From the IMG/VR virus record IMGVR_UViG_3300010430_000498, positions 1-22,256 of that record: a stretch of 22,256 nucleotides of DNA; one strand, written 5' to 3'. Source of the DNA: a virus. Of this stretch, positions 2,530 through 19,758 are shown piece by piece. Positions within the stretch are counted from its first letter, which is position 1; each line of letters starts with the position of its first letter. The notes beneath the pieces are model-generated. The model ran no database searches, was not told the DNA's origin, and saw nothing but the letters and a program-made list of their open reading frames with translations. A program made the position numbers and the translations under genes.

Positions 2530-2888
2530 TGAAACGAGTTATCATTGAAAGCCCCTATGCGGGCGACATAGAGCGCAATACAGAATACGCGCGGCGGTGC
2601 ATCAAAGACAGCTTAGATCGTGGAGAAGCGCCCTTGGCCTCGCACCTCCTTTACCCCCAAGTTCTCGATGAGAACGACCCAGCGCAGCGCAAGCAGGGGA
2701 TTGACGCGGGGCTTGTCTGGTCCCGGCAAGCTGACCTTGCAGCTTTCTATTGTGATTATGGCCGCTCCCCTGGGATGGATTTCGCGTGGGATCGTTACTT
2801 TGACCTAAATTTGAAGTTTTCCAACACCCACGATCCCGCCTTCCAGTTTGAAGAGAGATTTATCGGCAAGAATGTGGGTGACGAGTGA
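2529..2888 (+). CDS. Nucleoside 2-deoxyribosyltransferase-like protein (DUF7768/DUF4406 type)
   Basis: A 119-residue protein that resembles the small Rossmann-like family related to nucleoside 2-deoxyribosyltransferases, which cleave or exchange the base of deoxynucleosides. Seen directly: an IIESPYAGDIERN opening at about residues 5-17, a conserved SHLLYPQVL stretch near 39-47, then DAGLVWSRQAD and the YGRSPGMDFAW turn, corresponding to the family's GxSxGM region. The start at 2529 overlaps the previous stop (TGATG); a longer reading from 2490 would overlap the upstream gene by 40 bases. Together with the DUF5664 gene it suggests phage control of deoxynucleotides. Many phage members of this fold have no demonstrated activity. 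Confidence 0.7.
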   Translation: MKRVIIESPYAGDIERNTEYARRCIKDSLDRGEAPLASHLLYPQVLDENDPAQRKQGIDAGLVWSRQADLAAFYCDYGRSPGMDFAWDRYFDLNLKFSNTHDPAFQFEERFIGKNVGDE

Positions 2889-3451
2889 TGGATTGTTACC
2901 AGAACATCATTCAGTCCGGCGCGCCCACTGTAATGGGCATTGACCCAAGCCTTACCAGCACTGGCATTGCGGTAATCTCAGGTGGCTCGCTCTATGTGCA
3001 GAACATCACAACAAAGGCCAAGGGCATGGGGCGGCTGGCGTTCCTGCGCGATACCATCATGGACCGCGTGGAAATCACCAAGCCCGACATCATCATGCTT
3101 GAAGGTTATTCCTTCGCCTCGCGTGGTCGCGGGACGTTCAGCTTAGGTGAACTCGGTGGTGTGCTGCGCCTTGCGCTCTATGAGGCCGACCAGCCCGTCC
3201 ATGTGCTTTCTCCGAACTCGCTCAAGCTGTTCGTGACCGGCAAGGGCAACGCCAACAAGACAGCGGTGTCATTGGCGCTGATGAAGCGGTGGAAGGTGGA
3301 ACTGGATCAGGAGGACCAGGCAGATGCCACCGGCCTTGCGCTGGCTGCTGCCTATCACCTGATGCCAGCGTTAGAGCCAACTGTCCCTGAAGCGCAACTC
3401 AAGGCTCTTGAGAAGAGTGAGGTTCTTGGGGCGGTGGAGTCACCAAAGTAA
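2888..3451 (+). CDS. RuvC-like Holliday junction resolvase
   Basis: A 187-residue RNase H-fold nuclease of the RuvC type, expected to cut four-way junctions and other branched DNA made during phage replication so that it can be packaged. The acidic active site is visible: Asp19 in GIDPSLTSTG, Glu72 in IIMLEGYSF, and Asp143/Asp146 in QEDQADATG. The GRGTFSLGELGGVLR helix and the VLSPNSLKLFVTGKGNANK region also fit RuvC. The start at 2888 overlaps the previous stop (TGATG). It is the last gene of the rightward replication unit. Its final 53 bases overlap the end of a minus-strand gene, so the two units converge tail to tail. Length is normal for RuvC (about 170-190 residues). Confidence 0.88.
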   Translation: MDCYQNIIQSGAPTVMGIDPSLTSTGIAVISGGSLYVQNITTKAKGMGRLAFLRDTIMDRVEITKPDIIMLEGYSFASRGRGTFSLGELGGVLRLALYEADQPVHVLSPNSLKLFVTGKGNANKTAVSLALMKRWKVELDQEDQADATGLALAAAYHLMPALEPTVPEAQLKALEKSEVLGAVESPK

Positions 3452-3923
3452 AGGGGTCTTCCTCACCATCATCTGTGATGGGGTAGGGGGTATCACCGTG
3501 CAGGTAGATGTCACGCACCACGCGCCGCGCCCACTCATGGATCATACCATCGCTATCATGGAGCGATGTGCCGGTGCCTCTGGTGTCTGTGCCACCTCGG
3601 CAAGCAAATGAGAGAGTGGCGAAAGATACGCCCATGCCATTTGCAACTTCGTGCATGGAGAGCCCCAGCCCTTCAATGTAGTGCCTCAAGTCCGTGCGGT
3701 GGATCTCGATTGGAGGCTCCATGAATGCAATCCAGTCACGGATGCACCGTTCAATCCTCACCGCAATGTGACCATCGGCTTCTTCACGCTGACGCGCCCG
3801 CACACAGGCCATGCGAATGGTGTTGGGTGGGAACCCGACCGCCCGGTAAAAGGCGTCCTTTTGAGGCTGGCCCTTACGGTTCAGGTGCCTTTTTTTGAAT
3901 GATTGGTACTGGTCTGGTGTCAT
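3399..3923 (-). CDS. Helix-turn-helix DNA-binding protein (putative regulator)
   Basis: A 174-residue protein, last gene of the leftward unit. Around residues 93-115 the stretch GLSMHEVANGMGVSFATLSF looks like an XRE-type helix-turn-helix, and an earlier segment (DAFYRAVGFPPNTIRMACVRAR) could be a second one, so a two-HTH regulator is possible. The tail is acidic and proline-rich. An ATG at 4022 in the same frame, with GGAAAAG upstream, would give 207 residues. I prefer 3923 because the element shared by all block leaders of this operon (3979-3987) would otherwise be coding, and because the 3923 ATG overlaps the stop of a short leader ORF. The 3' end overlaps the resolvase gene by 53 bases. 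Targets unknown; repression of its own operon is a guess. Confidence 0.65.
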   Translation of the reverse strand: MTPDQYQSFKKRHLNRKGQPQKDAFYRAVGFPPNTIRMACVRARQREEADGHIAVRIERCIRDWIAFMEPPIEIHRTDLRHYIEGLGLSMHEVANGMGVSFATLSFACRGGTDTRGTGTSLHDSDGMIHEWARRVVRDIYLHGDTPYPITDDGEEDPFTLVTPPPQEPHSSQEP

Positions 3924-3952
3924 TGTGCTTGGCAATCTCCGCTGCACTGCAT
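3920..3952 (-). CDS. Possible 10-residue leader peptide
   Basis: A short ORF encoding MQCSGDCQAQ sits directly before the helix-turn-helix gene. It has the best Shine-Dalgarno sequence in this leader, GGAGG six bases before its ATG (minus strand, 3963-3959). Its stop TGA overlaps the ATG at 3923 (ATGA), as in translational coupling. The alternative is that the GGAGG serves an in-frame GTG at about 3947 of the longer protein, or that the ORF is chance. Small size makes this uncertain. Confidence 0.3.
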   Translation of the reverse strand: MQCSGDCQAQ

Positions 3953-4096
3953 ATATTACCTCCGTCCTCTTCAATGAAGGTCGAAGCTCTGCGATTTGGA
4001 CCCGGCCCCGGACTTGCTTCATTGCTTTTCCGGGGCCATTTCTTTGCCTAATCCGCTGTTTTCACTTGAGAAAACCCGCTGGATATGCTTTGTTTC
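3924..4096 (-). promoter_or_regulatory. 173-nt structured leader of the helix-turn-helix gene
   Basis: Read on the minus strand, this gap holds two perfect inverted repeats. One has 6-bp arms GTTTTC/GAAAAC (4058-4075, 6-nt loop). The other has 8-bp arms GGCCCCGG/CCGGGGCC (4004-4037, 18-nt loop). Next come the shared element GCTTCGACC (3987-3979) and the GGAGG of the short leader ORF. The loop of the second repeat contains the alternative ATG at 4022. Neither hairpin is followed by a T-run on the minus strand, so they are not ordinary terminators. The order hairpin, element, ribosome site recurs elsewhere in this operon. Confidence 0.5.
3979..3987 (-). repeat. Shared leader element, copy 1
   Basis: Exact GCTTCGACC on the minus strand, 56 bases before the preferred start of the helix-turn-helix gene at 3923. 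Its flanks match two other copies: CGCAGA before it as in copy 2, and TTCATT after it as in copy 5. Confidence 0.7.
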
Positions 4097-4426
4097 TCAG
4101 GCTCCGCGATGCTTCCGCTCGCGGGGTTTTTTCTTGCTCACACGAACGTAAGCGGCCCTTGGGAACGCTCCGGCAGCCCTGATTAGCGCAGGGTTCTGGT
4201 GCAACCGGCCAAGGCGCTTGCCATAAGGCCAGCCCGTTGGTGCTTCACGGACCACCCGTCCATGCCCACCGATTTCCTGGGCGGTGTCCACGATCTGGTA
4301 GAACCAGCTTTTGGCGCGCTCCCCGGCAAAATCTTGGTCTGCGATCTTGGCCGCCTCGATGGGGCAATCTGCATCACAGACGCCCCATGCAAAGCCTGTC
4401 TGGTCGAGGATGACATACCGGGTCAT
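4097..4426 (-). CDS. Hypothetical protein, 109 aa
   Basis: A protein I do not recognise. The N-terminus (TRYVILDQTGFAWGVCDADCPIEAA) looks like a small beta-alpha fold; the C-terminus is strongly basic (SKKKPRERKHRGA), which could bind nucleic acid. The ATG overlaps the stop of the preceding minus-strand gene (ATGA at 4426-4423), with GAGGGG just upstream as ribosome site. It is the last of a four-gene coupled block. Its last codons double as a terminator for the opposite strand, which constrains this tail and could explain part of its basic composition. Confidence 0.65.
   Translation of the reverse strand: MTRYVILDQTGFAWGVCDADCPIEAAKIADQDFAGERAKSWFYQIVDTAQEIGGHGRVVREAPTGWPYGKRLGRLHQNPALIRAAGAFPRAAYVRVSKKKPRERKHRGA
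4102..4132 (+). terminator. Rho-independent terminator for the rightward replication unit
   Basis: On the plus strand an 8-bp stem CTCCGCGA/TCGCGGGG (one G-U pair), with a 9-nt loop, is followed by six T residues (4127-4132). It is directional: the minus strand has A residues there. It lies inside the 3' end of an oppositely directed gene (4097-4426), whose codons for the final KKKPRERKHRGA segment form it. It is the first good stop downstream of the resolvase gene, so rightward transcripts would run about 650 bases antisense to the helix-turn-helix gene and its leader. Confidence 0.7.
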
Positions 4427-4656
4427 TCGGCCCCCTCAATCTCATAGTTCGAGAGGTCGCTACTCCAGTCCTCAGCGGCAAGTGTTATTGATTGAACCTT
4501 TGCCTCATAAAGGGCGCTGTTCAATCCCACCCGCGCGGCGTCTGGCACATCAATCAAGTCAGCAATGGCTTGCATCGCGGCTTGAAAGGCTGAATCGTCT
4601 TCGGCTTCCATTTCTACGTTCAGCCAAAGTTTTACGTCCACAGTGTATTTGCTCAT
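4423..4656 (-). CDS. Hypothetical acidic protein, 77 aa
   Basis: A small acidic protein, not recognised. It begins with a beta-strand-like stretch (KYTVDVKLWLNVEMEAED) followed by a helix (DDSAFQAAMQAIADLIDV) and a second strand region (YEAKVQSITLAAEDW). This is a plausible alpha/beta single domain. A GGAGG ten bases before the ATG serves it, and both ends overlap neighbours by ATGA (4656-4653 and 4426-4423), so it belongs to a coupled block with genes on either side. No motif suggests a function. Confidence 0.65.
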   Translation of the reverse strand: MSKYTVDVKLWLNVEMEAEDDSAFQAAMQAIADLIDVPDAARVGLNSALYEAKVQSITLAAEDWSSDLSNYEIEGAE

Positions 4657-4922
4657 GGGGCAAATGCCTCCGTTGCGATTTCGATGTTGGCCTCAAGCAT
4701 TTCTTCGCTGTAGTGGGTGAGCCCGCAGCGATAGACCGTGGCTGCGCCATCAACCCCGCATTTGGCGGTTGTGGCGTGAAGCAGATCGGCAATCATATCG
4801 CCCACCAGCTCTATCCAGTTTTCATCGGTGACAAGATCGCCGTTGTAGTTCTCAGAGTAAGACTTAACGGCGAGGCTGACGCGCTCAGCGCGGTCGCTGT
4901 TGGGTGGTTCGGAATAGCTCAT
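4653..4922 (-). CDS. Hypothetical protein, 89 aa
   Basis: A mostly helical protein that I do not recognise. Its central region reads TDENWIELVGDMIADLLHAT, followed by YRCGLTHYSEEMLEANIEIATE. Small phage proteins with this kind of helix pair are common in accessory regions, but none that I can name has a known role. The start lies three bases after the end of the upstream gene and its stop overlaps the next start (ATGA), so it is translated as part of the block headed by the gene at 5150. Confidence 0.65.
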   Translation of the reverse strand: MSYSEPPNSDRAERVSLAVKSYSENYNGDLVTDENWIELVGDMIADLLHATTAKCGVDGAATVYRCGLTHYSEEMLEANIEIATEAFAP

Positions 4923-4925
4923 TGC

Positions 4926-5150
4926 TCACTCCGCTGCTGCGCGCGTTGCCGCGCACGCTGAAATGGTCGCGTCCTGTGCCAGGTCATATTGCTGGCAGAA
5001 CGGGGCGAAGGCTGAAATCTCAAGAACCACGCCCTTGTTGTCGGTCAGCACAATATCAAGCGTGTAGAAGTCTCGCCCCCCATCGGTGCTCAGCTTGCGC
5101 TGCTGCACGCGCACTTCATTGATTCCGTGCAGGTTCATTGTATTCGACAT
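4926..5150 (-). CDS. Hypothetical protein, 74 aa, head of a four-gene block
   Basis: A small protein beginning MSNTMNLHGINEVRV, with likely beta strands (RDFYTLDIVLTDNKG, VVLEISAFAPF) and an alanine-rich end. Not recognised. I chose the ATG at 5150 rather than one at 5204 because AGGAG lies just upstream of 5150 and because the shared leader element GCTTCGACC (5176-5168) would otherwise be coding. It is followed by three coupled genes down to 4097. Confidence 0.6.
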   Translation of the reverse strand: MSNTMNLHGINEVRVQQRKLSTDGGRDFYTLDIVLTDNKGVVLEISAFAPFCQQYDLAQDATISACAATRAAAE

Positions 5151-5233
5151 TGGTACTCTCCTTTGTTGGTCGAAGCTCTGCGGTAACCGCATTGAGGGGC
5201 ACACCAGTTACGATGTGCCCGACGATGGGGTTT
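5151..5233 (-). promoter_or_regulatory. Structured gap leader with shared element
   Basis: This 83-base gap contains a perfect 7-bp inverted repeat GGGCACA/TGTGCCC (5197-5220, 10-nt loop), then the palindrome GCGGTTACCGC (5180-5190), then the shared element, then AGGAG and the ATG at 5150. No T-run follows the hairpin on the minus strand. On the plus strand a T5 run lies ten bases beyond the hairpin, too far for a canonical terminator. I read it as an intercistronic regulatory or processing site. Confidence 0.45.
5168..5176 (-). repeat. Shared leader element, copy 2
   Basis: Exact GCTTCGACC on the minus strand before the gene starting at 5150. With copy 1 it shares the 15-base string CGCAGAGCTTCGACC. 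A separate AGGAG ribosome site follows the element. Confidence 0.7.
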
Positions 5234-5548
5234 TTATTTCGCCTCGATGATGATTTCATCGTAGTGGAAGCTGTCGATGCCAGAGCGGCCCCCACATTCC
5301 CAGAAGTCTTCCACTTGCTCCTCTGTGGGCTCTTGGCCTTCCTCAAGGTCGCCCCACGCGGTCATCTGCTCACGGGCGAGGGACACGCGCCATGCCTCGC
5401 AGCCATCGGCGCTTGCGAAGGCTCGGGTGCCATCGCTGATGCCATCGTCACTGTCATGGACGGCAACCCACACTCTGGCGGGCTCGCGCGGTGTGATGGG
5501 CAATGTTTTTTCAATGGTGGCGGGGTTCTTTGTGCCGTTGTTGGACAT
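5234..5548 (-). CDS. Hypothetical acidic protein, 104 aa
   Basis: An acidic protein, not recognised. Its middle reads ARVWVAVHDSDDGISDG and DGCEAWRVSLAREQM, then an acidic helix (EEGQEPTEEQVEDFWE) and a final strand (DEIIIEAK). The repeated short strands and tryptophans suggest a compact phage accessory domain. A strong ribosome site, GAGGAGA, lies at the end of the upstream gene, eight bases before the ATG, and the two genes are only two bases apart. Last gene of the block headed at 6185. Confidence 0.6.
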   Translation of the reverse strand: MSNNGTKNPATIEKTLPITPREPARVWVAVHDSDDGISDGTRAFASADGCEAWRVSLAREQMTAWGDLEEGQEPTEEQVEDFWECGGRSGIDSFHYDEIIIEAK

Positions 5549-5550
5549 TT

Positions 5551-5817
5551 CTATATCTCCTCAATACCCGGTAGCTTGCCCGCCCTCTTGGCCGCAACGC
5601 GCAGGGCCTCCACTTGGTCCCAGCAAAAATCAAACTCATCTCGCACAATGATAAGCGCACAAAGGGAAAGCACTGGGTCGGACGCTCCAGCCCTTGAAAT
5701 CTGGGTCACAAAGTCTTTGGTCGCCACCTGCGAGCCCTTCACTGGGTCAGCGTGTGGGTAGGGGTTGTCCCCGTTCAGGTCAGCCATTTCAGCAATCTCT
5801 TGCAGCAGGTCGTTCAT
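5551..5817 (-). CDS. Hypothetical protein, 88 aa
   Basis: A small, mainly helical protein that I do not recognise, with an acidic N-terminus (MNDLLQEIAEMADLNGDN) and a C-terminal segment FDFCWDQVEALRVAAKRAG that could be an amphipathic helix. It overlaps the preceding gene by ATGA (5817-5814) and ends two bases before the next start, so it is the middle gene of a three-gene coupled block. No function can be proposed. Confidence 0.6.
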   Translation of the reverse strand: MNDLLQEIAEMADLNGDNPYPHADPVKGSQVATKDFVTQISRAGASDPVLSLCALIIVRDEFDFCWDQVEALRVAAKRAGKLPGIEEI

Positions 5818-6185
5818 TGCGCGGCCTCCTCGTACAAATCAGAGTGAGCGGTGCTGATGCTGATGCCCTCACCTGTCACCCTGAAAACCATTTCGGTGAA
5901 GGTCGGGTCGCCGCAAACATCTGCCAGCAGGTTGGCCTCAAATGTTTCACCAAAATCATCACCCCCGAACTGATCGCGGGCGGTTTCGTAGTAGTCCTCA
6001 TCCTTCTCTGGGTCGCAGCCAGGAAAATAGAAGATAAGGCTCTCAAAGGTATCATCGTCGCGGTTTCCGCCACACGCGCCCACATACGCGCCTTGGTCCT
6101 TGGCGAGGAAAAAATAGTTGTCATGTTTGGTGCAGAACTTGAACAGGTCTGCCACCTGATGGCGGCTCAGTTTAAGAGTTGGCAT
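5814..6185 (-). CDS. Possible DUF3085-like protein, 123 aa
   Basis: A protein beginning PTLKLSRHQVADLFKFC, with a central FFLAKDQGAYVGACGG stretch and an acidic, aromatic segment (FPGCDPEKDEDYYETARDQFGGDD). This order resembles DUF3085 proteins as I remember them, found on plasmids and phages next to antirestriction-type genes, but I cannot confirm it. I chose the ATG at 6185 because AAGGAGCTTCGACCA directly precedes it; a longer reading from 6239 would turn this ribosome site and the shared element into coding sequence. It heads a three-gene block. Confidence 0.6.
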   Translation of the reverse strand: MPTLKLSRHQVADLFKFCTKHDNYFFLAKDQGAYVGACGGNRDDDTFESLIFYFPGCDPEKDEDYYETARDQFGGDDFGETFEANLLADVCGDPTFTEMVFRVTGEGISISTAHSDLYEEAAQ

Positions 6186-6260
6186 TGGTCGAAGCTCCTT
6201 TTCAATGCTGTGCCTAATCGCACAGGATGGCGCACCCATCGGATGCGCTCACCTCTGCGG
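6186..6260 (-). promoter_or_regulatory. Gap leader with two hairpins and shared element
   Basis: Read on the minus strand, the 75-base gap contains GCGCA/TGCGC (6230-6248, 9-nt loop), then TGTGC/GCACA (6209-6224, 6-nt loop), then the ribosome site AAGGAG fused to the shared element GCTTCGACC (6195-6187) and the ATG at 6185. Neither hairpin has a T-run. The arms are short (5 bp each) but perfect, and their placement matches the other gap leaders in this operon. Confidence 0.4.
6187..6195 (-). repeat. Shared leader element, copy 3
   Basis: Exact GCTTCGACC placed between ribosome site and start codon of the gene at 6185. The 18-base string AAGGAGCTTCGACCAATG is identical to that of copy 4, so here the element is part of the ribosome-binding region itself. 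Confidence 0.7.
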
Positions 6261-6599
6261 TCAGTACCCTGCGGCCTCTGCTTGGTAGTCGCGGCGATAG
6301 CTGTCCTCCTCTTGCCAGTCTGGCACCCATGGCCAGCCGCGCGAGCATGGCTTGGCTGCGAGGCGGTCCAGCGGGCACACAAGGTCCGCACCAGTGGTCA
6401 GGCGTCCGTCGCAATCGCACCCATCTGACGTATGCTCTATGCGCACATGGTCGCCTTCGTGGGATACGACAAATGATGCGGACCACCACCCTTCTTCGGT
6501 CGGCCCGCCGCGATGGTGATGCAGGGCTTGGTCTGGTTTCAGCGTCAGCTTCACAAAGCTGCCTCTGTGGTATGTCCAGAATCGTGCGTTCTTGCTCAT
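6261..6599 (-). CDS. Hypothetical protein, 112 aa
   Basis: A protein rich in Trp, His and Cys. It opens MSKNARFWTYHRGSFVKLTL, has a PDQALHHHRGGPTEEGWWSA segment, then SDGCDCDGRLTTGADLVCPL and a tryptophan-rich end. The CDCDG motif and histidines could hold a metal, but this is only a suggestion. I have an impression of similar phage and plasmid proteins without known role. The start at 6599 overlaps the stop of the methyltransferase-like gene (ATGA); upstream in-frame starts at up to 6740 lie inside that gene and have no ribosome site. Third gene of its block. Confidence 0.65.
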   Translation of the reverse strand: MSKNARFWTYHRGSFVKLTLKPDQALHHHRGGPTEEGWWSASFVVSHEGDHVRIEHTSDGCDCDGRLTTGADLVCPLDRLAAKPCSRGWPWVPDWQEEDSYRRDYQAEAAGY

Positions 6600-7324
6600 G
6601 CTGCCTCCTTCAAGTATTGCAGGGCTTGTGGCCCCCATTGTTTCGCCATTGCTTCTGCCACTCCCGGAAAGAAGCGAGCGCGCTCTTTGCTGCGGTCTTC
6701 GCCGGGGCTGGCGTAATGAATCTTGTTCCAAGCCCTCCACTCGTCAGAGCCTTTGACTGGCGGTGTCAGGCGGTTGGTGTCTTCCAGCGGCGCTAGGTTG
6801 TTCAGCCAGAGGCAGGTGCGCTTGAAGCACTTGTCTCCGAACTGCCACGGCTGGAAGGTCTGCGCGAAGTTCTTGTAATTGCGAATACGCGCCTTGGCGT
6901 GTTTGTGCATTATTGGGTTCTCTGCTGCGATGCAGGGGATCGGCGCGTTCCACAGGTCAGAGAAGAGCTCGGCGTGTTCATCCAGTTTCTGCCAGAGCCA
7001 CGCAAAGCGTTCTTTGTCGGTGGTAAGGGCTGCATACTCGGCCCGCTCTTCATCGGTGTGAGCTGGCACATCCTTGGGAGCCACTTGGCCCGCAAGGTGT
7101 TTCGAACCCGAATTGCAAAGTCTTGTGCATGGCGGGTGCATTACCGCCATCAGGTCCCACATGCCCGGCTCAAGGTGGTTACGCACATCATCGCGAATGT
7201 GGCGATTGCTGCCGCGTTCATCGGCCCGCAGATCGCAGGACCATGCGTCATAACCCTCGCGAAGGAAGGCATCACGCACGGTCCCGCTGAACTCACATGC
7301 GACTAGGACACGCAAGTTACCCAT
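6596..7324 (-). CDS. Cytosine-methyltransferase-like protein
   Basis: A 242-residue protein of the group annotated as DNA cytosine methyltransferase in phages. The N-terminus RVLVACEFSGTVRDAFLREG fits the cofactor-binding motif I with the following helix. DAWSCDLRAD gives the acidic residue of the next strand, and HPPCTRLCNSG (PPC at about 64-66) corresponds to the catalytic Cys motif IV. AAENPIMHKH (about 133-142) corresponds to motif VI, and PWQFGDKCFKRTCLWL follows. It is shorter than full C5 methyltransferases and I see no clear QxRxR motif or target-recognition domain, so activity is uncertain. It could modify phage DNA against host restriction. It overlaps the next-upstream gene by 8 bases and the following gene by 4. 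Confidence 0.75.
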   Translation of the reverse strand: MGNLRVLVACEFSGTVRDAFLREGYDAWSCDLRADERGSNRHIRDDVRNHLEPGMWDLMAVMHPPCTRLCNSGSKHLAGQVAPKDVPAHTDEERAEYAALTTDKERFAWLWQKLDEHAELFSDLWNAPIPCIAAENPIMHKHAKARIRNYKNFAQTFQPWQFGDKCFKRTCLWLNNLAPLEDTNRLTPPVKGSDEWRAWNKIHYASPGEDRSKERARFFPGVAEAMAKQWGPQALQYLKEAA

Positions 7325-7691
7325 GAGGACGGGCCTCCAAGTCGTCCTGGCTGTTTACATTCACGGGCTGGTCGGCAGGGCGCTTGCCCTCGATCAGGAT
7401 CAGGTTATCCATGTAGGTGATGGCCACATGGTCGAAGCCAGCGAAGACTTTGGCCACCTGCTGGCCGGTAATGTCGATCACAGGCTTGTCGCCCTTGCCG
7501 GACACGCGGCGCGCTCCCGGCTGGTCGGCCTCACACGCGGCGAGCACAAGTGATGGCTCGCTCTCATGCCAGCTTCGGACATAGTAGGTTTCTTTGGCGC
7601 GGAACCCGGCACGATCAAGGCGCTTGCCTTCGAGCCAGATTCGGCGTCCGCCACGATGGTGGCCCAGTTTTGAAGTGAATATCTCAATCAT
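7317..7691 (-). CDS. Small beta-rich partner of the methyltransferase-like protein
   Basis: A 124-residue protein. The N-terminus MIEIFTSKLGHHRGGRRIWLEG followed by KRLDRAGF, and the later RRVSGKGDKPVIDITG, resemble a small beta-barrel domain that I recall as an N-terminal extension of some phage and bacterial cytosine methyltransferases. Here it is a separate gene just upstream of, and overlapping, the methyltransferase-like gene. The ATG at 7691 is chosen because AAGGAGCTTCGACCA directly precedes it; an upstream start at 7736 would lie inside the DUF2958 gene. It heads a three-gene block. A further exact copy of the nine-base element (7438-7430) lies inside this coding region. Confidence 0.65.
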   Translation of the reverse strand: MIEIFTSKLGHHRGGRRIWLEGKRLDRAGFRAKETYYVRSWHESEPSLVLAACEADQPGARRVSGKGDKPVIDITGQQVAKVFAGFDHVAITYMDNLILIEGKRPADQPVNVNSQDDLEARPHG

Positions 7692-7692
7692 T

Positions 7693-7701
7693 GGTCGAAG
7701 C
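7693..7701 (-). repeat. Shared leader element, copy 4
   Basis: Exact GCTTCGACC in the ribosome-binding region of the gene at 7691, identical over 18 bases to copy 3. The intergenic gap is only 13 bases, so this copy has no room for an upstream hairpin. Confidence 0.7.
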
Positions 7702-7704
7702 TCC

Positions 7705-8025
7705 TTATGCTTTGATGTACGAATGTGCGCGCGCAAGGTTGGTGTATTCGCTCAGGGTCTTTGAGGCGGTGAACCACAGATCACGCTCAACTGTGATGCC
7801 GCTGTTCGCAATCTCTGACAGGCTGACGCTCCCAAGCTCGGGGACCCCTTGCCCAAGGTCACACAGGCCAAAGGCAATGTCGGGGTCTTCAGGGTCCAGT
7901 TCGGTCAAGAGCCAAGTAGCCCCGGCGGATGGCGTGAATAGCTTGACGACTGGCACATGGTCCGCGCCTCGGTCGGCTCCGTTCGCCAGTAGCTGGCGCT
8001 CAATCTCTTTGGTGATGAGTTTCAT
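7705..8025 (-). CDS. DUF2958 domain protein
   Basis: A 106-residue protein matching the DUF2958 pattern. It opens MKLITKEIERQLLANG, then has VPVVKLFTPSAGATWLLTELDP at about residues 24-45 and IAFGLCDLGQGVPELGSVSLSEI near 50-72, with ITVERDLWFTA near the end. The family occurs on plasmids, integrative elements and phages, often near antirestriction and transfer genes; its biochemical role is unknown to me. It follows the small membrane protein with a 3-base gap. The ribosome site for the next gene lies just past its stop. Confidence 0.8.
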   Translation of the reverse strand: MKLITKEIERQLLANGADRGADHVPVVKLFTPSAGATWLLTELDPEDPDIAFGLCDLGQGVPELGSVSLSEIANSGITVERDLWFTASKTLSEYTNLARAHSYIKA

Positions 8026-8028
8026 GGT

Positions 8029-8202
8029 TCACTCCCCCAGCCAGAGAGTGGCGGTAACAATCGAGCACACAAGCCCGGTCATGGCTGCGAGCCCCGCGCT
8101 ACCCACGTCTGCGTAGGCCAGCAGCGCAACAGCCGAGCCCAGCATCACGACAGATGCAGACGCGGACAGCGCAAATAAGAGCTGGTTGGTCAATGTCTTC
8201 AT
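8029..8202 (-). CDS. Small two-helix membrane protein, 57 aa
   Basis: A 57-residue protein, nearly all hydrophobic, with two predicted membrane helices (about residues 7-29 and 33-54) joined by a short turn (YADVGSAG) and a basic residue near the N-terminus. No family recognised. I chose the ATG at 8202 because AGAGGAGAAA lies nine bases upstream; a longer reading from 8241 would absorb the ribosome site and shared element. It heads a two-gene block with the DUF2958 gene. It could be a membrane-acting host-takeover or exclusion factor, without direct evidence. Confidence 0.6.
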   Translation of the reverse strand: MKTLTNQLLFALSASASVVMLGSAVALLAYADVGSAGLAAMTGLVCSIVTATLWLGE

Positions 8203-8307
8203 TGGTCTTTCTCCTCTTTGGTCAAATGAAGGTCGAAGCATTTATTGACGGACTGGCGGTCATAGGGGATATGGGACACCAGCCCGCTGTAAGTGCTTAG
8301 GCCGTTC
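8203..8307 (-). promoter_or_regulatory. Gap leader with hairpin and shared element
   Basis: On the minus strand this 105-base gap contains an imperfect hairpin (outer arms CTGG/CCAG, inner arms CATA/TATG, 8253-8282), then the shared element GCTTCGACC (8239-8231) followed by TTCATTTGACC, then AGAGGAG and the ATG at 8202. I looked for a promoter and found no convincing -35/-10 pair. The element plus TTCATT is repeated at 3973-3987 before the last gene of the operon. Confidence 0.4.
8231..8239 (-). repeat. Shared leader element, copy 5
   Basis: Exact GCTTCGACC upstream of the small membrane protein gene at 8202. It is followed by TTCATT, as in copy 1, and by a separate AGAGGAG ribosome site. 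Confidence 0.7.
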
Positions 8308-8583
8308 TCATGCGTGGTCCTCCCTTGCTAAATGAAACTTGGCCTCGGTCCCGCCACGGCCTTTGCCGGACAGGTCCAAGATTGAGTGGTACATGGTGGC
8401 GTTATGGAAATTGAGCCGCGCGGCAACCCGGCGAGCCGCATCAACTTGCCAGTGGCCGCGCAAACTAACATGGCGCGCGTGCTCGGCCCTCCAGACGTAT
8501 TGATCCATCGTGGAGAGCTGTGAGAACCCGGCAGGTTCTGGCGCGTCATAGCCAATGATTGTGGTGTTCTTGGCGTAGGTCAT
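8308..8583 (-). CDS. Hypothetical protein, 91 aa
   Basis: A protein I do not recognise, with MDQYVWRAEHARHVSLRGHWQ near its centre and VAARLNFHNATMYHSILDLSGKGRGG towards the end. It is moderately basic and likely helical. The start overlaps the stop of the first gene of the unit (ATGA at 8583-8580), which supports coupling and this start. Second of two genes in the promoter-proximal block, so it should be made early and at a level similar to its partner. Confidence 0.6.
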   Translation of the reverse strand: MTYAKNTTIIGYDAPEPAGFSQLSTMDQYVWRAEHARHVSLRGHWQVDAARRVAARLNFHNATMYHSILDLSGKGRGGTEAKFHLAREDHA

Positions 8584-9059
8584 GCTGCAACCGCCAAGGC
8601 TGAAACCAACCGCCTACGCGCATCGCCAGTCGAAAGGTGATAGACTTCACCTCGGCCTTGGTCGTCCATGAACGAGAGAAGGAGCCATTGGCGCTTGCCC
8701 CCCTCGGCCTCGATAGCGTCAAACCATTCAAGGTTCATCGCTGGCGTCTGGATACCATCGGCCCGGCGAACTGGAATCAGGTGAGAGCCATATTCACGCG
8801 CTTGCCAGATCCACAAGTCGCCACGCCTCGCGCCAGACAGCATCTGGCGATCATGGAATGTGATGTCGGTCTTATAATGCTTCACGACACCAGAACAGAT
8901 GGCCATACGGATCAGCCGAGCCATAATGGGCTCAGGTGGCGCAGCTCGCGTGATGGGAGCATCAGAGCCAGCACCGTATTCAGCATGGTCGCTGGGTGAA
9001 GCCAGTGGATCAGAGCCAGAAGGGTCAATGGCATCCGCATTCCAGAATAATGGGGTCAT
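8580..9059 (-). CDS. Hypothetical protein, 159 aa, first gene of the leftward unit
   Basis: The promoter-proximal gene of the leftward unit. After a low-complexity N-terminal 45 residues rich in Ser, Pro and Ala, the sequence contains MARLIRMAICSGVVKHYKTDITFHDRQML, then RRGDLWIWQAREYGSHLIPVRR, and ends in a region with KRQWLLLSFMDDQGRGEVYHL. It looks like an alpha/beta domain, but I do not recognise a family. The ATG at 9059 follows GAGGAGA; a start at 9095 would include the shared element and part of the predicted transcript leader. First genes of early phage units often act on host functions. Confidence 0.6.
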   Translation of the reverse strand: MTPLFWNADAIDPSGSDPLASPSDHAEYGAGSDAPITRAAPPEPIMARLIRMAICSGVVKHYKTDITFHDRQMLSGARRGDLWIWQAREYGSHLIPVRRADGIQTPAMNLEWFDAIEAEGGKRQWLLLSFMDDQGRGEVYHLSTGDARRRLVSALAVAA

Positions 9060-9079
9060 GGTGGTATTCTCCTCAATTA

Positions 9080-9088
9080 GGTCGAAGC
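9080..9088 (-). repeat. Shared leader element, copy 6
   Basis: Exact GCTTCGACC in the leader of the first gene of the unit (start 9059), within about ten bases of the transcription start expected from the predicted promoter. A separate GAGGAGA ribosome site follows. Confidence 0.7.
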
Positions 9089-9091
9089 ACT

Positions 9092-9138
9092 TCAAATATA
9101 TACGTCAAATTCGACAGCGATGCAATACGTATATTTGA
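9092..9138. promoter_or_regulatory. Operator-like half-sites over the leftward promoter
   Basis: On the plus strand TCAAAT occurs at 9092-9097 and 9105-9110, and its inverse ATTTGA at 9133-9138. The outer pair is part of a longer imperfect inverted repeat: TCAAATATATACGT at 9092-9105 against ACGTATATTTGA at 9127-9138, differing by a TA insertion. The sites overlap the predicted -10 and -35 boxes, which is where a repressor would bind. Which protein binds them is not shown; the helix-turn-helix protein of the same unit is a candidate. Confidence 0.45.
9097..9125 (-). promoter_or_regulatory. Predicted sigma70-type promoter of the leftward unit
   Basis: On the minus strand TTGCAT (9125-9120) and TATATA (9102-9097) are separated by 17 bases, the optimal spacing. 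TATATT two bases further on is an alternative -10. Transcription would start near 9091, giving a leader of about 30 bases that contains shared element copy 6 and the ribosome site of the gene at 9059. It is by far the most AT-rich stretch nearby, and no other leftward promoter in this gap looks as good. Confidence 0.55.
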
Positions 9139-9287
9139 CTAATTGCGCACACACACAAGTCTTTTGTGAGGAAGACTCACGTTTGCCACTGGCCACGGCT
9201 TGACTCGGCCCGCTGCAATGGCCATATTCACTACTCTCGACGCCAAATCGAGACACAACCTCCTGATTGGAATGGTTGAAGCGGATT

Positions 9288-9313
9288 GCCCCGATACTCA
9301 AAGGTGTCGGGGC
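9288..9313 (+). terminator. Hairpin, possible weak terminator
   Basis: A 10-bp stem GCCCCGATAC/GTGTCGGGGC with a 6-nt loop is followed by CTTTCGC on the plus strand. The one non-Watson-Crick pair is U-G in a plus-strand RNA but A-C in a minus-strand RNA, so it favours plus-strand transcripts. The T-tract is short and no plus-strand gene precedes it, so its job is unclear; it may insulate the two divergent units. Confidence 0.35.
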
Positions 9314-9520
9314 TTTCGCATAATCGCATAGAGCGAATAGCAGTGTTCTCGCTTCGTTCCCCCGTTTGATCTCGTTCTGCCTTTGTTCCAGCCTCTAGGA
9401 TGGCTCAGGAGCGCCAAGCCATGGTCTTTAGGTATCGACATAGCCTAGAGATAGATGGCCACTCACGGAGCGGCACAGGGGCTGCGAGCCAATAGCGCAA
9501 CATTGTTACCCATACCCACG

Positions 9521-9552
9521 CCCCTCCACACCTATCTACTGTGGAATAGGGG
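9521..9552. other. Bulged hairpin in the non-coding region
   Basis: Outer arms CCCCT/AGGGG and inner arms CCACA/TGTGG stack on each other apart from an AAT bulge on the 3' side, with a 9-nt loop. Ten base pairs in all and no T-run. It may be a protein-binding or replication structure. Confidence 0.35.
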
Positions 9553-9624
9553 GAGACTGGCCGACAACCGCACGGAACGCGGGGCGATGGAGACAGCCAG
9601 GACGAATTGAAGTGGGACCCCTAC

Positions 9625-9641
9625 GGCATGGCAGGCATGGC
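9625..9641. repeat. Short tandem direct repeat GGCATGGC x2
   Basis: Two exact copies of GGCATGGC with one base between them (period 9), just before the guanine-rich block. It may be a binding site for a regulator or replication protein, or chance in GC-rich DNA. Confidence 0.35.
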
Positions 9642-9649
9642 CGGACCGA

Positions 9650-9682
9650 GGGGGCGGGGGGAGAAAAAGATGGGGGCCGGGG
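9650..9682 (+). other. G-quadruplex-type motif
   Basis: Four guanine runs of 5, 6, 5 and 4 bases lie on the plus strand (9650-9654, 9656-9661, 9672-9676, 9679-9682), separated by loops of 1, 10 and 2 bases. This meets the usual pattern for an intramolecular quadruplex and allows three or four tetrads. It is the strongest guanine clustering I noticed in the window and lies between the two divergent units. Confidence 0.5.
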
Positions 9683-9834
9683 TACGGATAAGGAAATCCC
9701 CCCTCCCCATATCGCACCAATTTTCAAAATGTTCAACCTATACGAGCATCCCAAATCCCCGAAGGTCAAAACCCGGCATATCGGCTACTTTTTGGGTACT
9801 TCTGGTTGAACCCACGTAAAGAGAAGGAAATACC

Positions 9835-9882
9835 ATGGATTTCGGAGACACATTGCTGGCAGAAGACTGGGAGGTGGCGTGA
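9835..9882 (+). CDS. 15-residue ORF resembling both ends of the Tad2-like gene
   Basis: The ORF encodes MDFGDTLLAEDWEVA and has a good ribosome site, AGAAGGAAA, five bases before the ATG. Its stop overlaps the next start (TGATG). The product matches the first residues (MDF) and the last ten (LAADWEIVE) of the 69-residue Tad2-like protein encoded at 10711-10920, with the middle missing. The nucleotides also agree over the last 30 bases (TGCTGGC, AGA, TGGGAG). It could be an internally deleted gene copy that now serves as a leader peptide for the membrane protein behind it. Confidence 0.4.
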   Translation: MDFGDTLLAEDWEVA

Positions 9883-10043
9883 TGGGTATGCTTGTTCTCT
9901 TCTGGTACTGCTACGACGACTTCCTGGCCGGGCTTTTGGATATGCCGGCGCTGGGTGAGGTGCCGTTTGTGTGGTGGCTTTTGTTTTTTGGTTTGGCCTG
10001 CCTGGAGAGTGCCTCGCAGCGCGCGAGGTCTAGCGGGTATTGA
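9882..10043 (+). CDS. Small membrane protein, 53 aa
   Basis: A 53-residue protein starting MGMLVLFWYCYDDFLAGLL, with a clear hydrophobic segment FVWWLLFFGLACL (about residues 29-41) and a basic, polar tail (SASQRARSSGY). This suggests one membrane helix with the tail on the cytoplasmic side. The start overlaps the stop of the 15-residue ORF (TGATG), so translation is probably coupled. The frame is well used and ends shortly before a terminator-like hairpin, so these two small ORFs form their own little unit. Family unknown; very short late-region membrane proteins in phages may act in lysis or exclusion. Confidence 0.5.
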   Translation: MGMLVLFWYCYDDFLAGLLDMPALGEVPFVWWLLFFGLACLESASQRARSSGY

Positions 10044-19506: not shown

Positions 19507-19758
19507 ATGACAAGCGACGACACACAGATTTTGCCTGACCGGGAGACCGGTCGGGTGGCATGGTTTGACTCAGATAAGCGATACGGCTTCATCCAGAGGG
19601 ACAAAACCGGCGATGACATTTTCGTCCATTTGACGGAAGCAAAAAAGGCAGGGATGGAATCTCTGCTTGAGGGTGAGCGCCTTTCCTTCATTGCGCTGCC
19701 TTCCCCCGCAAAGCCAGATCAGCTTGCGGCAACCGACCTCCAGCAGGTCATCTCTTAA
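19507..19758 (+). CDS. Cold-shock domain protein (CspA-like)
   Basis: An 83-residue protein, with the cold-shock fold at about residues 14-60. RNP1 is seen as KRYGFIQ (24-30) and RNP2 as DIFVH (37-41), in GRVAWFDSDKRYGFIQRDKT. Such proteins bind single-stranded RNA or DNA and can melt structure or prevent termination. The first 13 residues are an acidic extension (TSDDTQILPDRET) absent from standard CspA. It comes 17 bases after the co-chaperonin gene and precedes an intergenic hairpin (19771-19800). A role as an RNA chaperone for phage late mRNA, or as an antiterminator, is inference. Confidence 0.85.
   Translation: MTSDDTQILPDRETGRVAWFDSDKRYGFIQRDKTGDDIFVHLTEAKKAGMESLLEGERLSFIALPSPAKPDQLAATDLQQVIS

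Follow-up and report, generated by a model that had tools for sequence, protein, structure and literature searches.

Results

The stretch of DNA analyzed here, referred to below as the window, is a 22,256-base IMG/VR fragment of an orphan phage (IMGVR_UViG_3300010430_000498). Its leftward operon, which contains 15 called genes and a very small open reading frame (mini-ORF), carries a 9-base element, GCTTCGACC, at the head of each of its translational blocks. The genes are small, and nearly all of them have ordinary ribosome sites. At nine coupled starts, the distance from the preceding stop to the start is −8 to +3 nucleotides (nt), and the blocks are separated by 13, 75, 83, 105, and 144 nt. 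These distances agree with the six gene blocks that had been proposed in an earlier examination of the letters of the window (the sequence-only reading). The element is found in all five gaps of at least 13 nt and at the operon head, and at none of the nine coupled starts. The earlier statement that coupled genes lack a copy held even when mismatches were allowed: with up to two tolerated, the search still turned up no copy closer than 60 nt to any coupled start.

There are seven exact copies of GCTTCGACC in the window, all on the minus strand and in transcript sense, and six of the seven lie in one orientation 1–28 nt before a start codon. In 100 dinucleotide shuffles, the mean number of copies was 0.25 and the largest was 2. 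When the leaders were taken as 40 nt each, one 9-mer was common to 6 of the 15, while no 9-mer occurred in more than 3 leaders in any of 3,000 sets of dinucleotide-shuffled leaders. The identity between pairs of copies is 100% inside the 9 bases but only 30%, which is near random, over the 15 bases on each side. This abrupt drop at the edge of the element speaks for selection on a binding site rather than for simple recent duplication. In copy 6, six bases of the left flank recur beside copy 5 and six of the right flank beside copy 2, so some exchange of leaders may have occurred as well. We conclude that GCTTCGACC is a real, sharply bounded, conserved cis-acting leader element, present once per translational block, and that it is probably regulatory.

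The sixth block probably begins at the mini-ORF. No ribosome site in the operon is stronger than that of the ATG at 3952 (−13.1 kcal); this ATG opens a 10-codon ORF with a TGA that overlaps the ATG of gene 3923. With the start at 3952, all six leader copies are therefore 1–28 nt from a start codon. The sequence-only reading was thus right in placing one copy before each block head, but its distance of 1–60 nt gives way to the shorter values in Table 1. Similarly, the six exact minus-strand positions that it listed were all recovered, while its total overlooked the seventh copy, which is inside a gene. This copy encodes Gly-Phe-Asp, is 105 nt from the next start, and is preceded by a weak fold (z = −0.75). 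It looks like a chance occurrence outside the system.

The ribosome sites of the block heads are ordinary, with energies from −7.4 to −13.1 kcal, so the element is not a substitute for a Shine–Dalgarno sequence. The Shine–Dalgarno core adjoins the 9-mer in every leader, with an overlap of at most the first G (copies 3 and 4). The identity of copies 3 and 4 over 18 bases, reported earlier, is seen in the sequence. In the 13-nt gap, copy 3 is squeezed between the ribosome site and the ATG.

The 60 nt upstream of each copy were folded and compared with 200 windows drawn from the length of the operon as background. Strong folds precede copies 2, 4, 5, and 6 (z-scores in Table 1), and such scores are reached by at most 0.5% of the operon windows. 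No comparable fold was found before copy 1 at the operon head, copy 3 in the 13-nt gap, or the in-gene copy. The inverted repeats before these four of the six copies are unrelated to each other in sequence, and their predicted stems, of 6–11 pairs, would be the candidate duplexes for any RNase III cleavage. A test for intrinsic terminators found none on the minus strand in the gaps, and the stems are not followed by a T-run when read along the operon. The repeats coincide with the element; that they also contribute to its function is what we infer.

A one-mismatch copy, GCTTCAACC, which was absent from the earlier reading, is located further upstream, and the 60 nt 5′ of it also fold strongly (z about −4). 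It is a candidate for a further element. The ORF downstream of it, 9256–9092, is doubtful, because its G + C content at third codon positions is low (0.44, compared with 0.56–0.74 in the operon genes) and its ribosome site is too near its start. The approximately 800 bases at 9092–9900, between the divergent operons, contain few credible genes. An imperfect inverted repeat, TCAAATATACGT ... ACGTATATATTTGA, is present in this region at the head of the leftward operon, and the region is a candidate for an operator or promoter.

Table 1. Coordinates of block-head genes, element copies, and inverted repeats in the window.
Feature	Coordinates	Strand	Remarks
Block 1 head gene	8580..9059	−	Block 9059+8583
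Block 2 head gene	8029..8202	−	Block 8202+8025; 8025 is DUF2958
Block 3 head gene	7317..7691	−	Block 7691+7324+6599; 7324 is of a phage DNA methyltransferase family, phrog_757
Block 4 head gene, DUF3085	5814..6185	−	Block 6185+5817+5548
Block 5 head gene	4926..5150	−	Block 5150+4922+4656+4426
Block 6 mini-ORF, MQCSGDCQAQ	3920..3952	−	Stop overlaps start of 3923
Gene for 174-residue protein, last of operon	3399..3923	−	Weak helix-turn-helix match
Element copy 1, GCTTCGACC	9080..9088	−	20 nt 5′ of start 9059
Element copy 2, GCTTCGACC	8231..8239	−	28 nt 5′ of start 8202
Element copy 3, GCTTCGACC	7693..7701	−	Ribosome site upstream; start 7691 is 1 nt downstream
Element copy 4, GCTTCGACC	6187..6195	−	Ribosome site upstream; start 6185 is 1 nt downstream
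Element copy 5, GCTTCGACC	5168..5176	−	17 nt 5′ of start 5150
Element copy 6, GCTTCGACC	3979..3987	−	26 nt 5′ of mini-ORF start 3952; 55 nt 5′ of 3923
In-gene exact copy of GCTTCGACC	7430..7438	−	Within gene 7691–7317
One-mismatch copy, GCTTCAACC	9274..9282	−	5 nt past a strong hairpin, then AGGAGG
Inverted repeat before copy 2	8248..8287	−	z = −4.2
Two tandem inverted repeats before copy 4	6205..6248	−	z = −4.3
Inverted repeat before copy 5	5185..5232	−	z = −3.95
Perfect 9-bp stem before copy 6	4004..4037	−	z = −3.8
Stem before one-mismatch copy	9288..9313	−	Terminator-like stem on the + strand too

The product of gene 3923 gives a helix-turn-helix match (HTH_3) at E = 0.023, which is below the cut-off. 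A tblastn search found no phage homologue of the gene, the structure model of its product is unusable (predicted local distance difference test, pLDDT, 44), and the sequence matches in the PDB are meaningless. The 10-codon ORF at 3952–3920 (minus strand), coupled stop to start with this helix-turn-helix-like gene, is a possible leader peptide. On the + strand, a strong terminator, a GC-rich stem followed by TTTTTT, is located at 4087–4136 of the window, within the last gap of the leftward operon; it probably halts rightward transcripts of gene 2885–3451.

The phage is distantly related to HTVC023P, DSL-LC04, and CRP-901. Its terminase and portal show 34–40% identity to their counterparts there, with about 35–40% for the portal, and its head genes have a GroES-like gene beside them, as in those three phages. 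A cold-shock protein is encoded at 19507–19758 of the window. Sphingobium, Erythrobacter, Brevundimonas, Roseobacter, and Ruegeria phages carry homologues of the proteins encoded by the DUF2958 and DUF3085 genes, and on this basis an alphaproteobacterial host is likely. IMG/VR, the phage collection, and GTDB genomes yielded no close relatives; scans with the portal and terminase and of GTDB gave distant relatives only, with identities of at most about 46% over long matches. The loci of the distant relatives (1.16 Mb) contain four copies of the 9-mer, none of them recognizable as a leader copy. The 17-mer AGGAGCTTCGACCAATG has two matches in IMG/VR, which are single and unrelated. A gapped pattern of the element, AGGAGA, and ATG, run over the whole collection, matched 32 contigs, which is near the number estimated for chance, with no more than three copies of the 9-mer per contig. 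The arrangement of one copy per block was seen in no other record searched, and no known RNA family was matched.

Leader repeats that are comparable, but of other sequence, were found in phages of alphaproteobacteria. In Ruegeria phage RpAliso (OR257569.1), ACCGAAACG occurs 26 times in 149 kb, compared with once for the reversed control. In the region that was read, all the ACCGAAAC copies are 14–19 nt before a gene start, mostly 3′ of TTGAC/TAT-like boxes, and the repeat looks like a phage-specific promoter or leader motif. In Roseobacter phage CRP-3, three neighboring genes have CTAACTTGGAG as their ribosome-site leader, and the record contains no further copy. Roseobacter phage CRP-901 has five copies of GTAATCTGT, four of them within GTAATCTGTGACAnnTGTCA, with four on one strand and one on the other. 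Downstream of the copies lie AT-rich stretches and GAGAGAG ribosome sites, and the copies probably represent a promoter with a palindromic operator. A 9-mer in all seven leaders of contig G021 was rejected, as it represents the shared C-terminal codons of tandem genes rather than a leader element. The seven genes follow each other at 19619–23290 of that contig, each start being overlapped by the GDLA-stop of the previous gene, with the look of an array of tail genes.

Discussion

From its sequence and placement, we assign the element to a descriptive class of unidirectional intergenic leader motifs, within which it matches the consensus of no named family. Among the start-associated sequences (SAS) and extended SAS (ESAS), the motifs of clusters EC, EF, EG, and EI, and the stoperators, a function is known only for the stoperators (PMC3203893, PMC7302621, PMC9283540). 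The SAS of cluster K mycobacteriophages is a 13-bp sequence, GGGATAGGAGCCC, with a core like a ribosome site, and beside it lie the ESAS, 17-bp inverted repeats that share a consensus (PMC3203893). The likeness to SAS drawn in the sequence-only reading holds for the anatomy: the element is short and asymmetric, and it occurs in several copies in one orientation directly 5′ of the starts of non-structural genes, some of them with an upstream inverted repeat. That reading had added that the sequence differs from SAS and stoperators, and so we found. GCTTCGACC in the six leaders does not match GGGATAGGAGCCC even with two mismatches, and the ribosome-binding sequence is outside the 9-mer, which adjoins the ribosome site or splits it from the start. 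Unlike the ESAS, the inverted repeats here have no shared consensus.

The lytic Microbacterium phages of cluster EC have an 18-bp unidirectional motif in small intergenic regions, upstream of the ribosome site and 21–30 bp before the start; cluster EF has SAS-like motifs, and repeats are present in EG and EI (PMC7302621). Our element resembles the EC motif in having identical repeats of one orientation in small gaps near starts, and the geometry is similar for copies 1, 2, 5, and 6. It differs in length (9 bp vs 18 bp), in sequence, and in the position of copies 3 and 4 between ribosome site and start. Furthermore, the EC motif is also present among structural genes, whereas the operon here is one of small non-structural genes. 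In T4, the RegA sites are AU-rich and poorly conserved, and RegB needs GGAG (PMC3014915). The proposal made below, of one phage factor acting on many early-gene leaders, is like the RegA and RegB systems, but GCUUCGACC is neither AU-rich with AUG, as in a RegA operator, nor GGAG, as in a RegB site. The boxA of rrn operons in some alphaproteobacteria consists of a hairpin followed by GCTCTTTGACA. We dropped this resemblance, as it is two bases too short and the core is not matched.

How might the element act? We tentatively favor the possibility that GCTTCGACC acts at the level of mRNA, on each translated block. The rule of one copy per block is kept even in the 13-nt gap, which makes the translated block the easiest unit of action. 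A phage or host factor, which could be an RNA-binding protein, a nuclease, or a small RNA, would recognize GCTTCGACC in the mRNA and would set the translation or decay of all the blocks jointly, as RegA or RegB does in T4 for numerous early leaders. The messages of neighboring blocks may be separated or insulated by the inverted repeats upstream of the element. In a more specific version, to which we give a low probability, hairpin and GCTTCGACC would form a composite mRNA-processing tag. The transcript would be cut at the hairpins, leaving the 9-mer as the 5′ end of each message, where it would be read by a phage factor controlling how the message is translated or decays. For copy 1, which may lie at the transcription start, the same 5′ end would arise without a cut.

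Several observations weigh against action in mRNA. Within the operon, non-coding sequence is limited to the gaps; coding constraint alone could thus explain why the element is restricted to leaders, a restriction that fits DNA sites as well. The spacing from element to start varies from 1 to 28 nt and is ill-suited to a fixed ribosome geometry. The 9-mer has no common structural context, and a search of the window for an antisense partner (GGTYGRRGY) gave only the complements of the copies and near-copies together with two scattered sites, none of which stands out as a partner. The inverted repeats fold about equally well on the + strand, where some stems carry T-runs and look like terminators; thus, the repeats may be there to end antisense transcripts and be unconnected with the element. 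Finally, no relative with the element was found, and its conservation is that of copies within one fragment.

As the spacing varies and the sequence is purely linear, repressor binding to DNA is a serious rival, and stoperator-like silencing is the main one, although we consider it rather unlikely. A repressor would bind the asymmetric element in double-stranded DNA and halt transcription of the leftward operon, with copy 1, near the head, as an operator. The L5-type stoperators are 13-bp asymmetric sites in short intergenic gaps, with an orientation tied to transcription, and are bound by the repressor of a temperate phage (PMC9283540). The element has the same single orientation relative to transcription and the same placement in gaps, so this part of the stoperator comparison in the sequence-only reading stands. 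A DNA site would also tolerate variable distances to start codons, and the protein of the last gene of the operon, with its weak helix-turn-helix match, is similar in size (174 residues) to the L5 repressor (183 residues; PMC9283540). Nevertheless, the element is shorter than the L5 site, with 9 bases rather than 13, and the match and model of the 3923 product are too poor to identify it as a repressor. Neither an integrase or other lysogeny gene nor a confirmed repressor was identified in the fragment. In addition, a site in every gap, even one of 13 nt, exceeds what silencing needs.

It is quite unlikely that the element is part of a phage-specific promoter, or of the initially transcribed sequence, with each block having its own transcript. 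The RpAliso motif ACCGAAAC, with its TTGAC/TAT-like boxes, indicates that such motifs can accompany promoters, and TTGCAT-17-TATATA, seen by eye upstream of copy 1, would put the transcription start at the element. However, a scan for sigma-70 promoters found no −35/−10 hexamers at the copies, and the flanks, at 30% identity, conserve neither box before them. Copies 3 and 4 lie between the ribosome site and the start codon, which disfavors a core-promoter role as a −10 or −35 box with transcription beginning downstream, and a transcript starting within or after the element would lose the ribosome site.

We also doubt that the 9-mer is a non-regulatory recombination joint, the shared edge of leader cassettes that were swapped or duplicated with the small genes. 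The flanks that copy 6 shares with copies 5 and 2 do resemble a crossover at the 9-mer, and the 18 bases common to copies 3 and 4 would fit. The other flanks are random, yet the six copies are unaltered at 54 of 54 positions, which calls for selection, and the element was not found in other phages that might be sources of the cassettes. Chance repetition or a compositional artefact is of negligible probability: although there is an in-gene copy among the seven, and the single copies inspected in other phages read as coding sequence, the shuffle counts for copies (seven vs 0.25 expected) and leaders (6 of 15 vs a maximum of 3) refute it.

Unidirectional leader motifs recur in unrelated phages, in cluster K and in clusters EC, EF, and EI of phages of Actinobacteria, and now in a phage distantly related to those of Pelagibacter and Roseobacter, with a sequence that is its own in each. 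In this phage, an exact 9-mer found once per translational block, and at none of the coupled starts, is a clear-cut rule, open to testing by the mutation of a few bases.

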